NCBI GenBank assembly: GCA_029225085.1
Contig: JAQXVU010000085.1
Coordinates: 1 to 64,000, forward strand
Length of the DNA: 64,000 bases
Reading direction: 5' to 3'
From: Eggerthellales bacterium
GTDB taxonomy: Bacteria > Actinomycetota > Coriobacteriia > Coriobacteriales > Eggerthellaceae
Shown here: piece after piece, positions 5,265 to 61,831 of the stretch
Position numbering within the stretch: the first letter of the stretch is position 1
Layout: each line of letters starts with the position of its first letter
Made by a program: the position numbers and the translations under genes
Notes under the pieces: generated by a model
Seen by the model: only the letters and a program-made list of their open reading frames with translations
Databases searched by the model: none
Told to the model about the DNA's origin: nothing

Positions 5265-6479
5265 TTAAGAAATGTAGGGGTGATAGAGGCTTTCCACATC
5301 TACCCGCTCGTCGGGGTACAAGTAGTTGAAGACGTCGATGAAATAGCGATCGGTCATAGAGGCGATGTAGTCGACTACGATATCGTCGGGGGAGCTGTTC
5401 TGCACATAGCCCTCGTTGAATTCCATCACCCAGGCATGCACATGATGGCGGAAGATGGGCGAGCTCTCATCGCCAGCCAGCAAATCCTCCCTGAAGCGCT
5501 CATACAGACGCTGCATCATGGGCGCAATGAGGGAGTCGAGCTTCTCGTGAGCCTCTGGGGACGTGTAGATCTGCTGGGAGTTCAGAGCTTTGGCCTGGTT
5601 CAGGCCCTCGAGCACTTCGGGGTCCATGGCGATATAGGGCTTCCCGATACTGTTCTTCAGCAGGTTGGTGGTGACATTGGCGATGATAGAGGAGTTGTTG
5701 GTGCCAATGACGTTGTTGGGCAGGTTGTACTGCTCCTTGCCCAGCACCTTCAAGGTCAGGGCGTCCTGACGATCCTTGCCCAGATACGCCAAGATATCGC
5801 AAATGCGGACCACGCAGCCTTCCAGCGTACAGGGGCGCAAATTCTGGCTCTCACCTGGGTTTTCGTAGCAGCGGGTCATCATGGCATCAAGGTCGTCGAA
5901 GCTCTCGCAAGCGGAGGGCTCGTAGCGCACGAAGGCCTTCTCGCCGCAATGGCACAGCACGCCGTTCAGCATCTGCAGGCTGAAGCTCTGATTAGACACG
6001 GTGCGCAATACCCGCACGCTGTGCACGTTATGGTTGAAGTACCGACCCGTATGCTCGTGATACAAGTTCGACAGCATGCGCTCTCCCCCATGACCGAAGG
6101 GGGTGTGGCCAATGTCGTGACCCAGGGCAATCGCTTCAGCCAACGCCGTGTTCAGCCGCAAGGCGCCGGCGATCTTGCGGGACAGGGACGACACGATCTG
6201 CAGATGATAGGAGCGCCTGGTCACATCATCATTCTGATAGAAGGGAAAGACCTGGGTCTTGTCCATACAACGGTTGAAGAAAGCGTTGTTCAGCACACGG
6301 TCGACATCCCGTACATAGGCAGGACGCAATGGGTCGGGGAACTCCGGCGTGCTGCCTTCATAGATGGCATCCTCATGGCGCGAGGCGTAGGGGGACATGC
6401 CAGCCTCAGCCAAAGCGCGGCTCTCCTTCAGGTACGCCAACTCTTCAGGGGTGTACACAAACCGAGGATCCTTCGCCAT
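5265..6479 (-). CDS. dgt: HD-domain dGTPase-like dNTP triphosphohydrolase
   Basis: A 404-residue HD-superfamily protein. The metal-binding motif is in LGHDIGHTPFGHGGE (about residues 118-132), with R(R)SYHLQIVSS before it, as in dGTP triphosphohydrolase-like proteins that hydrolyse dNTPs to nucleoside and triphosphate. AAGGAG lies 6 nt before the ATG. It starts 18 bp after recR, forming a likely dnaX-ybaB-recR-dgt unit for DNA maintenance. Exact nucleotide specificity is not visible. Confidence 0.82.
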   Translation of the reverse strand: MAKDPRFVYTPEELAYLKESRALAEAGMSPYASRHEDAIYEGSTPEFPDPLRPAYVRDVDRVLNNAFFNRCMDKTQVFPFYQNDDVTRRSYHLQIVSSLSRKIAGALRLNTALAEAIALGHDIGHTPFGHGGERMLSNLYHEHTGRYFNHNVHSVRVLRTVSNQSFSLQMLNGVLCHCGEKAFVRYEPSACESFDDLDAMMTRCYENPGESQNLRPCTLEGCVVRICDILAYLGKDRQDALTLKVLGKEQYNLPNNVIGTNNSSIIANVTTNLLKNSIGKPYIAMDPEVLEGLNQAKALNSQQIYTSPEAHEKLDSLIAPMMQRLYERFREDLLAGDESSPIFRHHVHAWVMEFNEGYVQNSSPDDIVVDYIASMTDRYFIDVFNYLYPDERVDVESLYHPYIS

Positions 6480-10972: not shown

Positions 10973-12346
10973 ATGGGCCTCATCAAAGCGCTGACCGGTG
11001 CAGCAGGAAGCGTTCTGGCAGATCAGTGGAAGGAGTTCTTCTACTGCGACGCCATAGACAAGGACGTCCTGGTCGTTAAGGGCCAGAAGCGCATCAGCGA
11101 TCGCAGCTCGAACACCAAGGGAAGCGACAACATCATCACCAACGGTTCCGGCATCGCCGTGGCCGACGGACAGGCCATGATCATCGTCGACAACGGCAAG
11201 ATTGTGGAATTCTCTGCAGAGCCTGGCCAATACACCTACGACACCTCTACCGAGCCCACCATCTTCACCGGCGATCTGGGTCAGGGCATCCTCGATTCCT
11301 TCGCACGAGTTGGCTACCGTTTCACGTACGGTGCTGATACCGGCCATGACCAGCGCGTGTATTACTTCAACCTGAAGGAGATCATGGGGAACAAGTACGG
11401 CACCGCCACCCCCATCCCCTTCCGCGTGGTAGACGCCAACATCGGCCTGGACATCGACATCAGCGTTCGCTGCAACGGTGAGTACTCCTACAAGATCGTC
11501 GACCCCATCATGTTCTACACCAACGTCTGCGGTAACGTGAGCAGCCCCTATAAGCGCTCGGAGATCGATTCCCAGCTGAAGGCCGAGCTCCTCACCGCCC
11601 TGCAGCCTGCCTTTGGCAAGATCAGCGCCATGGGCATTCGTTACAGTGCCATACCCAACCACACCACCGAAGTTGCCGACGCCCTGAACGAGGTTCTTTC
11701 TGAGAAGTGGACACAGCTCCGCGGCATTAAGGTGGTCAGCTTCGGCGTGAACACCATCGCAGCCTCCGAGGAGGACGAGCAGCTCATTAAGGACATGCAG
11801 AAGGCTGGCGCCCTGCGCGACCCCAATATGCGTGTTGCTGTCACCACTGCCGCTTCCGCCGACGCCATGCGCGCCGCCGCCGCAAACGAGGCTGGCGCCA
11901 TGAATGGTTTCGTGGGCATGGGCATGGCTGGCTTCGCCGGCAACCAGTTCGCCAACGTAGGCGCTCAGGTTCCCCAGGGCGAATTCCCCCAGTATCCCAA
12001 TCAGTATCCTGTGGCTGAAGGCGGCGGCTTCACCCAGCCCGCTCCTGCAGCCAGTGCCGCTGCTGCTCCCTCTGGCAGCTGGACATGCTCCTGCGGCAAG
12101 GAGAACACCGGCAAGTTCTGCCCCGAGTGCGGATCGCCTAAGCCCCAGGCTCCCGAGGGTTGGGTCTGCTCCTGCGGTTCGGTGAACCAGGGCAAGTTCT
12201 GCCCTGAGTGCGGTGCCCCCAAACCCGCTGGCGCTCCGCTGTATCGCTGCGACAAGTGCGGTTGGCAGCCTGAGGATCCCACCAATCCTCCTAAGTTCTG
12301 CCCCGAGTGCGGCGACCCCTTCAACGACGCGGACATCCAGAGCTAA
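10973..12346 (+). CDS. SPFH-domain protein with C-terminal zinc ribbons (YdjI-like)
   Basis: A 457-residue protein. The N-terminal SPFH-like region (about 20-300) contains TPIPFRVVDANIGLDIDISV, similar to the B. subtilis YdjI type, which is known to act in membrane-stress complexes. A glycine/alanine-rich linker follows (about 325-375), then three Cys modules: CSCGKENTGKFCPECG, CSCGSVNQGKFCPECG and CDKCGW...FCPECGDPF. The start is the ATG at 10973, because AAAGGGG lies 5 nt upstream; the longer frame from 10871 lacks such a site. It stands alone on the plus strand. A cytosolic membrane-scaffold role is inferred from the family. Confidence 0.85.
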   Translation: MGLIKALTGAAGSVLADQWKEFFYCDAIDKDVLVVKGQKRISDRSSNTKGSDNIITNGSGIAVADGQAMIIVDNGKIVEFSAEPGQYTYDTSTEPTIFTGDLGQGILDSFARVGYRFTYGADTGHDQRVYYFNLKEIMGNKYGTATPIPFRVVDANIGLDIDISVRCNGEYSYKIVDPIMFYTNVCGNVSSPYKRSEIDSQLKAELLTALQPAFGKISAMGIRYSAIPNHTTEVADALNEVLSEKWTQLRGIKVVSFGVNTIAASEEDEQLIKDMQKAGALRDPNMRVAVTTAASADAMRAAAANEAGAMNGFVGMGMAGFAGNQFANVGAQVPQGEFPQYPNQYPVAEGGGFTQPAPAASAAAAPSGSWTCSCGKENTGKFCPECGSPKPQAPEGWVCSCGSVNQGKFCPECGAPKPAGAPLYRCDKCGWQPEDPTNPPKFCPECGDPFNDADIQS

Positions 12347-12351
12347 TTGAG

Positions 12352-12376
12352 CGGGCCCGCTTCGTGCGGGTCCGGT
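12352..12376 (+). terminator. Hairpin directly after the SPFH gene
   Basis: CGGGCCCGC pairs with GCGGGTCCG around a TTCG-containing loop immediately downstream of the stop. No clear T-tract follows, so it may act with the next hairpin. Confidence 0.5.
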
Positions 12377-12624
12377 GTCGGCCAAGCGGTGCCGGCTGGG
12401 CGAAACTGGCCCCCTATGGCGCGTATCGGCGTTACTGGATTACGGATGGCGCGGACCGCCCTTATTGATGAGTGATGGGCCGGATCGGGCCCCGATTGGC
12501 AAGCAGGGCCCTTATTGGCAGAGCGAGGTCCGCGCCCGCTATCTTCTGAAGGGCTCTTACTAGTGCTCGGCGTATCTGCTCGGGCAGATACGCCGCACTT
12601 TCATACAGAATGGGTATTTACTCG
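12377..12624. other. GC-rich spacer with a second hairpin
   Basis: No convincing ORF. Short repeats of the form GGGCCCTTATTGGC and GACCGCCCTTATTGATG occur. A perfect 12-bp hairpin lies at 12568-12595 (arm CGGCGTATCTGC, loop TCGG) and is followed by CACTTTC; it could be the real terminator of the SPFH gene. Confidence 0.6.
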
Positions 12625-13665
12625 CACCCCGTCTCGCATGGCGAGGCGGGGTGCTGCCATTCTGCTAATCCATTAAGCGGGTTAGTTGCCAGATGCCCCC
12701 GATTTCCCCCGATCGGGAATCCAATAGGCGGGTTGCGAGCCAGGGCCCTGCCATTAAGGCATGAGCGAGCCATCCTCGGTCGGGTCTTTGCCCGTCGCTC
12801 TTGGGGTGCCATCAGAGCGGGCTGGCGAGAAACGGACTATGTGCCAATCAGAGGGCCGGAAAGGGCAGCATTCTGGCTGGGAACCGAACATATGCGCACT
12901 TCTGGCCCCTCGACCCGGTCCGCCCTCCCTCGCCGAGCCCTCTCGACGCCCGTCGCATCCCCCGTTTCGCCCGTTCCGCCTGAAAGCGGGGCGCAATTCC
13001 GGTTCGAGGCGATGAGGGCCCGCCCCATGCCCGCTTCGAAGTGCGCATATGGTTCGTTCGTCGCCAATTCGCCCCCGAAACGGGGGGCAGGATTGGCACA
13101 TAGTCGATTTCCATCCGGGAAGTGGCATATGTTCCGTTCCCGGCCATCTGAGAAGATCGCCCAGCCCTCGATCGGGGAGGGCTGGCGACTTTCCCCATAT
13201 ATGACCTCCGGGATCCTGGCCTCGCGAGGTTTTGGGCGGATTCCCCGGTAAATGACCTGCGGCAAGGGGCCCCTTTCGACGCTCGGCGAAGAACGGGCCC
13301 CGCCAATGCCCGTTCGAGGCGGAAACGGGGCGCGACTTCAGCGAAAGCGCGTCGCCGACCATGCTCCACCCCTCCCGGACGAGGTCGCCCGAGGCATCCA
13401 TGGGTCATTTACCGGGGAATCCGGCAGAGGAGCCCGATTCAGCGCGATCGGGAGGTCATTTACCGGGAAAGTCGCCCTGGGCAGATGCGGGGGGAGCACT
13501 TCGCCACCGCCCTGGCAGGCGCCGGGAGCCCTCAGCGGGCGAGCGCATGAGAGCTTTTCGGCGGGTCTCCGCGCAGGCAACGCGGTCAGGGCGTCGGAGG
13601 ACCGATCCTGGCCTTCGCAGAGCGAAGCAGGTGCGGCCAGGACTCCGTTCCCCCGACGGCCCCGG
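12625..13665. repeat. Intergenic repeat element A, homologous to element B at 60.9 kb
   Basis: About 1,040 bp without a convincing gene, colinear with 60911-61612. The left tip is a hairpin built on GCACCCCG and CGGGGTGC; the right end is near TTCCCCCGAC. A motif resembling CGAACATATGCGCACTTC or CGGACTATGTGCCAATC occurs five times: plus strand at 12833 and 12885, minus strand at 13038, 13091 and 13119. A second motif, GGTCATTTACCGGG-like, occurs at about 13192 and 13243 (minus) and 13402 and 13452 (plus). Open frames exist on both strands, but the conservation follows the repeats rather than one frame. Confidence 0.8.
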
Positions 13666-13769
13666 CGGGTGACGGCTTCGCGCGAAACTTGGCACTTCGA
13701 GCGGACGACGGCTTCGCGCGAGCTCCAGTGCCCCAGCGCCGCCTTCCACAAAAGAGCGCAGATTCGCTG
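13666..13769. other. Spacer between element A and folC
   Basis: Two copies of GACGGCTTCGCGCGA (about 13671 and 13708) with partly similar flanks. No gene seen. Confidence 0.5.
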
Positions 13770-15077
13770 CTACAGGCCCATGTTCGCGATAGATTCCTTA
13801 ATCTCGCCGATGCTGTACAGGCTGCCAAAGGCCACGATAAGTCCAGACTTGCCCGCCATCTGCATAGCCACTCGCAAACCCTCGTCAATGCTTCCGGCCA
13901 TGTAGGGATCCATCAGGTCGTAGCCCAGGTGATCCATCTGCAGCTCTCGCAGCTCCTTGGCAAGTTCAACCACAGGAAGAGCGCGAGGATTAGGAGGCTG
14001 CACGCACACCAAGTTGCGCACCATGCCCGACTGCAGCACGGCGTTCAGCATCTCGTGATAATCCTTGTCAGCAAGAACGCCGATAACGAACACCGGCATC
14101 TGACCAGGGAATACGCGATAAATAGATTCCATCAGGGACTCAGCGCCCTGAGGATTATGGGCACCGTCTACCACCACCGTGGGCTTCTTGCACAGCACCT
14201 CGAAGCGACCAGGCCACGTTGCGTTGGCAACGCCCGCCCGCATATGCTCCTCGGTGATCTCCCATCCGCGGCCCACAAGCACCCGCGCAGTTTGCAGAGC
14301 GAGAGCGGCGTTGTGGGGCTGATAACTTCCCAACAGCGTTGTGCGCAGACCCTTCAGGTCCTTCCAGCTGAAGGACACGTAATCCGTGAACACCGTCAGC
14401 TCGTCGGCAATGTCCTCGCGGCGAGTGAACTGCAAGCTGCAGCCCTTCTCCTTGGCAACCGCCGTGATGACCTCGGCGGCCTCAGGCTCCTGAAATGCGG
14501 AGATGACAGGGCTTCCCTCCTTGATGATGCCCGCCTTCTCCCCTGCGATCTGAGCGATGGTGTCACCCAAGATCTCGCAGTGATCAAGCGCGATGGGGGC
14601 GATGACGCAAGCCTCGGGAGCGGGAATCACATTGGTGGAATCGAGGCGTCCGCCCATGCCAACTTCCATAATGCAGATATCGCAGGCAACGGAAGCGAAG
14701 TGCACCAACGCCACCGCGGTCATGAGCTCGAACTCCGTGGGGTGGTCGCTCATAGCGTCTGCGGCTTCTTTCACCGTGAGGGTGGCCTGGCGCAGTTCGT
14801 CGTCAGAAATGTTCTCGCCGTTCACACGGATGCGCTCGTTGAACTCCTGAATGTAGGGGCTGGTGAACAGACCGGTCTTGTAGCCCGCCTCTTTCAGTAT
14901 GGAAGACAGATATGCGCAGGTAGAGCCCTTACCGTTGGTGCCAGCCACATGCACGAACTTCAACTTCTCCTGAGGATTTCCCAGTCGCTGCATGAGCTCA
15001 CGGATGCGATCCATCCCCAAGCGGGACTCCTGCCAATGAGGGGTGTTTATATACTCGACGGCGTTGAACTCAGGCAT
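13770..15077 (-). CDS. folC: Folylpolyglutamate synthase / dihydrofolate synthase
   Basis: A 435-residue Mur-ligase-fold enzyme. The P-loop is HVAGTNGKGSTCAYL (about 43-57), with MEVGMGGRLDSTNV and VVDGAHNPQGAESL as further family signatures. It adds glutamate to folates, and possibly to dihydropteroate, in the cytosol. Its start overlaps the end of the UDG gene by 8 bp, indicating an alr-UDG-folC operon. Other folate genes (folP-folK, fhs, fchA, folD) occur elsewhere in the window. Confidence 0.93.
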   Translation of the reverse strand: MPEFNAVEYINTPHWQESRLGMDRIRELMQRLGNPQEKLKFVHVAGTNGKGSTCAYLSSILKEAGYKTGLFTSPYIQEFNERIRVNGENISDDELRQATLTVKEAADAMSDHPTEFELMTAVALVHFASVACDICIMEVGMGGRLDSTNVIPAPEACVIAPIALDHCEILGDTIAQIAGEKAGIIKEGSPVISAFQEPEAAEVITAVAKEKGCSLQFTRREDIADELTVFTDYVSFSWKDLKGLRTTLLGSYQPHNAALALQTARVLVGRGWEITEEHMRAGVANATWPGRFEVLCKKPTVVVDGAHNPQGAESLMESIYRVFPGQMPVFVIGVLADKDYHEMLNAVLQSGMVRNLVCVQPPNPRALPVVELAKELRELQMDHLGYDLMDPYMAGSIDEGLRVAMQMAGKSGLIVAFGSLYSIGEIKESIANMGL

Positions 15078-60910: not shown

Positions 60911-61612
60911 GCACCCCGTCTCGCATAGCGAGGCGGGGTGCTGCTCTTTTCCTAATCCATTAAGCGGGGTGATTGCCAGATGCCCTTTATCGAGCCTTTG
61001 CCCACCGCTTTTCGGACTCGGGCAAGGCGGGCTGGCGAGAATCGAACTATATGCCAATCGTAGAGTCGAAAAAGAGCCCCTTCTGGCGGGAAATCGAACA
61101 TATGCACACTTCAGGCCCCACGCCCTGGTCGCCCCTTCTTCACCGAGGTCTCTCGACACCCGTTTTGCCCTCCCGTCGTGCCCCATTCCACCTAAAAATA
61201 AGACGTATTTTGGGTGTAAAGCGGGAAAGGCCCGCCATAGGCCCAGCTCGCCGCAGCCTCATTCCTGACCTGGCCCCGCTCGAAGGCTGCCCGCCCGCCG
61301 CGAAGTGCGCATATGGTTCGTTCGTCGCCAATTCGCCCCCGAAACTGGGGGTCGAATTGGCACATAGTCGATTCCCATCCAGAAAGTGGCACATGTCCCG
61401 TTTCCGGCCATCTGAGAAGATCGCCCTGGGCAGATGCGGGGGGAGCACTTCGCCACCGCCCTGGCAGGCGCTGGGGCCCTCAGCGGGCGGGCGCATGAGG
61501 GCTTTCCCGGCGGGTTTCGACGACAGCGACGCGGTCAGGGCGTCGGGGGGCCGATCCTGGCCTTCGCAGAGCGAAGCGGGTGCGGCCAGGACTCGGTTCC
61601 CCCGACGACCCC
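60911..61612. repeat. Intergenic repeat element B, homologous to element A
   Basis: About 700 bp, colinear with 12625-13665 but lacking about 310 bp of it. The left tip is the same GCACCCCG/CGGGGTGC hairpin (here followed by CTCTTTTCC, so it could end YvlD transcription). Motif copies: plus at 61043 and 61095, minus at 61302, 61354 and 61382. The spacings (52, 52, 28) equal those in A. The right end near 61612 is followed at once by a truncated gene. Confidence 0.8.
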
Positions 61613-61831
61613 GCAACGGGTGGCGGCATCTTCCACCCCTTAGTAAGGGCAGGAGAAATCGTCAGTGGCGGAACGCTCCTTGCCGAAATCGTCTCTCCGA
61701 TGACTGGAGAGGTTATGGAAGAGATATCCGCACCTGTGGGAGGCGTGGTATTCTTCACTTGCAATAAGCCCATGGTCACCGAACACGCCCTGCTGTTCCG
61801 CATCGTGCCCCGGGGCTTGGCAAACGCGTAA
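61613..61831 (+). pseudogene. C-terminal remnant of a succinylglutamate desuccinylase/aspartoacylase (M14-type) gene
   Basis: The frame TGGGIFHPLVRAGEIVSGG then TLLAEIVSPMTGEVMEEISA and PVGGVVFFTCNKPMVTEH matches the C-terminal barrel-like domain of AstE/AspA-family deacylases, which end with a GGxFxPxVxAGxxVxxG...GEVxxxxxAPxxG pattern. Nothing corresponds to the catalytic N-terminal domain; element B abuts the break. The gene is therefore truncated, and the ATG at 61580 lies inside the element. Confidence 0.65.

Follow-up and report, generated by a model that had tools for sequence, protein, structure and literature searches.

Introduction

Repeats dispersed between bacterial genes include BIME and REPIN, which are built from palindromic REP units of 20–40 bp; pairs of REPs are spread by RAYT, a Y1 transposase. 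The IS21 family has istA and istB genes and a 5-bp target duplication beside a terminal CA, and the ends of Mu (MuA) and Tn7 (TnsB) carry unequal numbers of sites. IS21, Mu and Tn7 all use several direct repeats per end; each IS21 end has at least two, which are read by a tetramer, and in IS5376 the repeats are 23 bp apart (PMC10122671).

We describe here a repeat of an Eggerthellales bacterium (assembly GCA_029225085.1) in which inverted arrays of a 23-bp site are held at fixed distances. The stretch analysed, called the window throughout, comprised positions 1 to 64,000 of contig JAQXVU010000085.1. A sequence-only reading of this DNA had drawn attention to five related motifs in a mirrored arrangement, and had proposed a long structured RNA, an array of protein binding sites or a non-autonomous mobile unit. 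Most likely, though with no more than an even chance in our view, the units are mobile but non-autonomous, their ends being recognised by a DNA-binding protein that acts as a multimer, much as at the ends of IS21, Mu and Tn7. A literature search of open-licence papers found no description of the element.

Results and Discussion

The five motifs are part of a larger block of inverted site arrays

A position weight matrix was seeded with the five motifs and then refined over loci, with the start of a site defined as the first base T of TGGC. Every copy fits the 23-bp consensus TGGC-N14-RTG-N2, of which TGGCTAGAAnCCCGCTAAATGGC is the commonest form. The order and orientation first reported for the five motifs, two on the plus strand followed by three on the minus strand, were borne out by the matrix scan, but the spacings of 52, 53 and 28 bp had to be corrected to 51, 51 and 29 bp. 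The mirrored order of subtypes also held, with the ATGTGCCAAT type outermost and the CATATGCGCACTTC type innermost, and the same geometry was indeed found again in a second element of the window, element B (distances 51, 246, 51 and 29 bp). The scan found 21 sites above 12 bits and six same-strand pairs at exactly 51 bp in the window, versus means of 2.1 sites and 0.000 such pairs in 50 shuffles of it. Outside the elements, the window contained one site and no pair at 51 bp.

The five-motif element proved to be one third of a larger block, block A, in which two flanking units of like layout had been overlooked. Block A consists of three tandem units in the order 3, 1 and 2 (Table 1). Unit 3 has three sites per side, spaced 30 and 50/51 bp, with an inner T-to-T distance of 194, and unit 2 has two sites per side with a spacing of 51 bp. 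BLAST boundaries place the end of the composite block about 250 bp past its last arm. Element B is made up of unit 1 and a remnant of unit 3, without unit 2, and TCGCCC occurs at both junctions of this difference between A and B. Such junctions fit a short-repeat deletion as well as an insertion, and they were therefore not used to prove transposition. That the three tandem units of block A spread together is the best explanation; for that account as a whole our belief is evenly balanced.

Table 1. Positions of the repeat units and associated features within the window.
Feature	Position	Content	Basis and other occurrences
Unit 3, first in block A	12417..12772	sites + 12417, 12447, 12497; - 12691, 12742, 12772	matrix scan; also alone in C72
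Hairpin 1, loop of unit 3	12568..12595	CGGCGTATCTGC tcgg GCAGATACGCCG	compensatory changes across 8 copies
Hairpin 2, loop of unit 3	12624..12654	GCACCCCGTCTCGC atg GCGAGGCGGGGTGC	compensatory changes across 8 copies
Unit 1, the five motifs first reported	12823..13146	sites + 12823, 12874; - 13066, 13117, 13146	matrix scan; repeated in element B, C10b, C35, C74, C45
28-bp spacer, mid to inner site of 51-bp arm (unit 1, left)	12846..12873	such spacers often palindromic	folding z
Unit 2	13183..13477	sites + 13183, 13234; - 13426, 13477	matrix scan; absent from element B; alone in C22b, C71, C34b
Right tail common to several composite copies	13478..13726	contains mini-hairpin module 13577-13662	BLAST boundaries
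Element B, inner right site left over from degenerate unit 3	60956..60978	-	matrix scan
Element B, unit 1	61033..61410	sites + 61033, 61084; - 61330, 61381, 61410	matrix scan

The mini-hairpin module of the right tail (GGCGTCGGGAGG...CTGGCCTTCGCAGAGCGAAGC...CTCCCGACG) is found again at about 61530–61610 of the window. More than 12 further loci of the genome have it by itself, often close to phased units. The stretch 61640–61830, between element B and an NYN/OST-HTH gene, may hold the remnant of a small gene.

Copies are dispersed between unrelated genes

The whole block gave 57 partial matches in its own 1.93-Mb genome. From a gap-free alignment of 41 arms, each taken as mid site, 28-bp spacer and inner site, a sequence-only profile was built; it detected 94 arms in this genome at E up to 1, with 74 at E <1e-3. 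These make up some 40 units distributed over some 30 loci, a unit being a head-to-head pair of arms, plus then minus, around a loop; both counts are approximate because several contigs end within the repeat and some contig ends are probably one locus. Units are about 300 to 380 bp long with 2 to 4 sites per arm, and several sub-types can be told apart: types 1, 2 and 3 are present in block A, and others have the site TGGCTAGAAnCCCGCTAAATGGC. Variable motif positions in other copies had been named beforehand as grounds for rejecting the element; the positions are conserved in those copies. Short tandem repeats of about 24–30 bp occur just beyond several units (L150 ~2050–2160 and ~6350–6420, L099 ~2080–2140) and are possibly decayed outer site arrays.

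All of the roughly 30 loci are intergenic, and none of the predicted genes contains a unit (genes were called with a simple codon model and checked against Pfam). Block A is located between the 3' ends of convergent genes; one, for an SPFH/Band 7 protein, extends to 12346, and the other, for a Mur-ligase-domain protein, occupies the DNA from 13770 on. The possibility that the block belongs to a known protein gene was discarded, as Pfam was negative for its two largest ORFs and no gene is predicted in 12346–13770. The neighbours of the other loci are unrelated housekeeping genes, among them dnaK, rpoB, tsf, pheT, PEPCK, purD and nadA. Where both neighbours were predicted (24 loci), 12 loci had convergent, 10 co-directional and 2 divergent neighbours. 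The units found about 270–440 bp upstream of dnaK and rpoB (L148 ~2150–2490, L100 ~1770–2170) occupy the rarer 5' position.

The preponderance of convergent loci (12 of 24 versus 2 divergent) argues for the chief rival of the mobile-unit reading, a host element that organises the chromosome or bounds transcription in the manner of BIME in E. coli. Under this explanation a nucleoid-type protein would occupy phased sites at gene 3' ends and would bridge or wrap the DNA, handling supercoiling or read-through between convergent genes; the spread would be ancient and the copies would have been selected. We consider such a host role possible but rather unlikely. Promoter avoidance would yield an equal bias in location, and the P value of the convergent bias ranges from 0.001 to 3e-6 with the background used, for which gene-pair counts are small. 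Furthermore, composite blocks at unrelated loci are 76–92% alike, which suggests spread and not vertical upkeep.

Site spacing and loop length follow the DNA helix

Same-strand distances below 120 bp between sites, over all loci, took only the values 29–31, 50–52, 60–61, 79–82, 90–92, 103–104 and 109–112 bp. In the commonest unit, one arm contains two sites (51 bp) and the other three (51 and 30 bp). Outer 30-bp sites differ in number and fade outward, and the unit ends are not sharp. Inner-to-inner distances clustered at 150, 182, 193, 203, 233–236 and 246 bp, and the six loop classes (150, 182, 193, 203, 235 and 246) fit a period of 10.5 bp (R 0.94; P 0.009 relative to random lengths). For the same-strand classes 30, 31, 41 and 51, P for the same period was 0.04. 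The loop of unit 1 in block A is about 54 bp shorter than in other copies, or about five turns. A protein complex assembled on double-stranded DNA would need loop lengths that step with the helix in this way.

These distances suggest how the element might work. The 23-bp site would be read by one sequence-specific protein, bound as a multimer. The sites of an arm are separated by about 3 and 5 turns of the helix and the loop changes by whole turns, and this phasing would place the bound proteins on fixed faces of the DNA, where they could bring the two ends together in a single complex.

The arms do not covary, and local hairpins occur in loops and spacers

The long inverted repeat had also been read as a long structured RNA. 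Here the block would be transcribed and the inverted arms would pair as long helices with side hairpins. Pairing of the arms as RNA would need matched changes in both arms. None were matched, and the long RNA helix was rejected on this basis. Left and right arms were no more alike within a unit than across units of one class (p 1.0, 0.56, 0.49 and 0.72 for types 1, 2, 3 and 4), and among arm mismatches G-U was not favoured over A-C (100 versus 97). Loop lengths that track the period of B-DNA count against an RNA as well, as do the three units of the block, which differ in sequence yet share the framework of sites. The sole match of the block in Rfam was weak and attributed to chance. What speaks for an RNA are the two loop hairpins of unit 3 and hairpin 2 of the 182-bp class, all with pairs altered on both sides; we nevertheless regard a structured non-coding RNA as very improbable. 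The lack of covariation between left and right arms marks the design as one of protein and DNA, and together with the geometry it gives good support to the proposed array of protein binding sites, with binding itself predicted from sequence.

Local structure is a separate matter. In the loop hairpins, 8 of 42 and 9 of 39 predicted pairs had changes on both sides, in a comparison of few sequences. The 28-bp spacers folded better than shuffled sequence (mean z -1.5 over 49 arms), in contrast to the sites themselves (0.06). Local single-strand structure formed by loop and spacer hairpins is possible, and the hairpins could act in DNA, RNA or single strands. Maintenance of hairpins through compensatory changes would also be in keeping with the host element considered above.

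The core CCACATTnTTAAAnAAATGGGTATTTA was seen by eye to recur in otherwise differing loops. Arm sites around a hairpin core of this kind recall a site of recombination, transfer or replication, such as an origin of transfer or an integrase attachment region, at which the arm sites would load an accessory protein and a single-strand nuclease would act at the loop hairpin and conserved core. We think this improbable, as there are about 30 chromosomal copies and the plasmid and phage collections gave no match; the one match to a viral contig looks coding or due to chance.

Sites have diverged less than loops and spacers

Divergence between copies was lower in the sites than in loops and spacers for type 1 (0.092 versus 0.21), type 2 (0.059 versus 0.20–0.215) and the 182-bp class (0.219 versus 0.29–0.43). 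The difference was clearest for types 1 and 2 and for the C72 comparison, and weak for type 3 (0.093 versus 0.104–0.142). The slow divergence suggests that the sites are still in use, or else that the copies have descended recently from sources that were under selection. It would also be expected of a host element with selected copies.

A second genus has a like design with a different site

The whole block had no match in 40 relatives, and a class-wide search of 400 genomes returned its own genome only. These many-genome searches used stricter filters that diverged types would escape, so absence elsewhere is not proven. Single or weak matches in Anaerolineales and in three further genomes (G021, G118 and G133) look coding or due to chance. 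One weak match of the arm profile (E 0.0016), in genome G053 of another genus, led to elements of like plan with a differing site, TGGCGCGCTAGGAGCTnAATGCG. G053 has eight such elements, six found by BLAST and two by an arm profile of its own; the latter two were outside the set from which that profile was built and keep the spacing 51-41-77-50 exactly. The full spacing is 51-41-77-50(-31-31). In most copies similarity begins no more than about 6 bp from a site edge, and the outer 31-bp sites accordingly vary by whole sites. The inter-site spacers are GGAAAA-rich at their centre in both genera (by eye). A tail, A/G-CGACGGAGG, follows the last site at three loci (L169, L171 and L172) and in two copies resembles a ribosome-binding site followed by ATG.

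Exact geometry in two genera with differing site sequences indicates that the spacing is what is conserved. The G053 elements bear on two of the alternatives. Their inner distance of 77 bp leaves hardly any loop, which is difficult to reconcile with a recombination site centred on a loop hairpin. Several of their neighbouring genes also look convergent, consistent with a host element. The distribution is patchy, however: BLAST of the G053 elements was negative in four other species of the genus (one positive among five species sampled), and the remaining relatives gave no match, which argues against a host role.

The element resembles transposon ends and dispersed repeats without matching any of them

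Like IS21, the element has inverted ends, each with direct repeats of a site of about 20 bp (at least two in IS21, 2 to 4 per arm here), and TGGC-type repeats are seen at the ends of the IS21 copy of its own genome and of other family members. It differs from IS21 in having no istA or istB, in its site gaps of 28 and 7 bp instead of 23, in showing no terminal duplication, and in a site sequence and spacing unlike those of the genome's own IS21. With Mu and Tn7 it shares several spaced sites per end, in numbers unequal between ends, but its units of about 300–380 bp are gene-free, number about 40 and have variable outer arrays. It is short, non-coding and dispersed between genes with inverted ends, as MITEs are; its ends, however, are multi-site arrays, and neither a target duplication nor an autonomous parent was seen. 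BIME and REPIN likewise are intergenic, biased to 3' ends and mosaic, with inverted pairs around a variable core. In contrast to these, the element has a 23-bp non-palindromic site with no tendency to form hairpins and a spacing fixed by the helix.

Judged from sequence, the element is an interspersed non-autonomous repeat. It is not an IS21 element, because it has no genes and a different spacing; not a proven MITE, because duplication and parent were not found; and not REP/BIME, because its site is not palindromic.

For the mobile-unit reading, the proposed mode of spread is mobilisation in trans of a non-autonomous unit by a transposase with multi-site ends, like those of IS21, Mu or Tn7. 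The earlier suggestion of a non-autonomous mobile unit stands in that this is the likely way for the copies to have spread; it is weakened in that no target-site duplication was visible by eye at the unit edges in either genome, where copies are old and edges uncertain. The outward fading of the outer sites, the stretch of the composite block beyond its last arm and the lack of a partner gene among those found also count against it. The unit edges TG...CA fit TGGC...GCCA. None of the transposons found in the genome carries these sites, and no autonomous transposon with matching ends was present among the arms found there, for the transposase families searched. The genome has one clear IstB, on contig C75, where one IS21 copy (L095) has three TGGC-type repeats 22–23 bp apart at its right end; this copy has no matching site cluster, and the idea that the element is one of its ends was rejected on the spacing. 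Contig C89 carries one IS3-like element (L053). The IS21 loci of relatives have various TGGC-type ends, none with matching spacing in the loci read.

Implications

Such exact geometry is unusual in an intergenic repeat of bacteria. We predict that each species has one protein that recognises the 23-bp site of that species and assembles on fixed faces of the helix. More speculatively, and in our view unlikely, the arrays could represent a novel class of chromosomal nucleoprotein element: phased inverted 23-bp arrays around hairpin loops, mostly at gene 3' ends, on which a putative multimeric protein would organise the chromosome or its supercoiling, with site and protein co-evolving new specificities across lineages. 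If the protein is a transposase, the copies, with their many variants of spacing, would offer a rich natural series of multi-site ends; should it instead be a host factor, they would represent a new kind of chromosome element.
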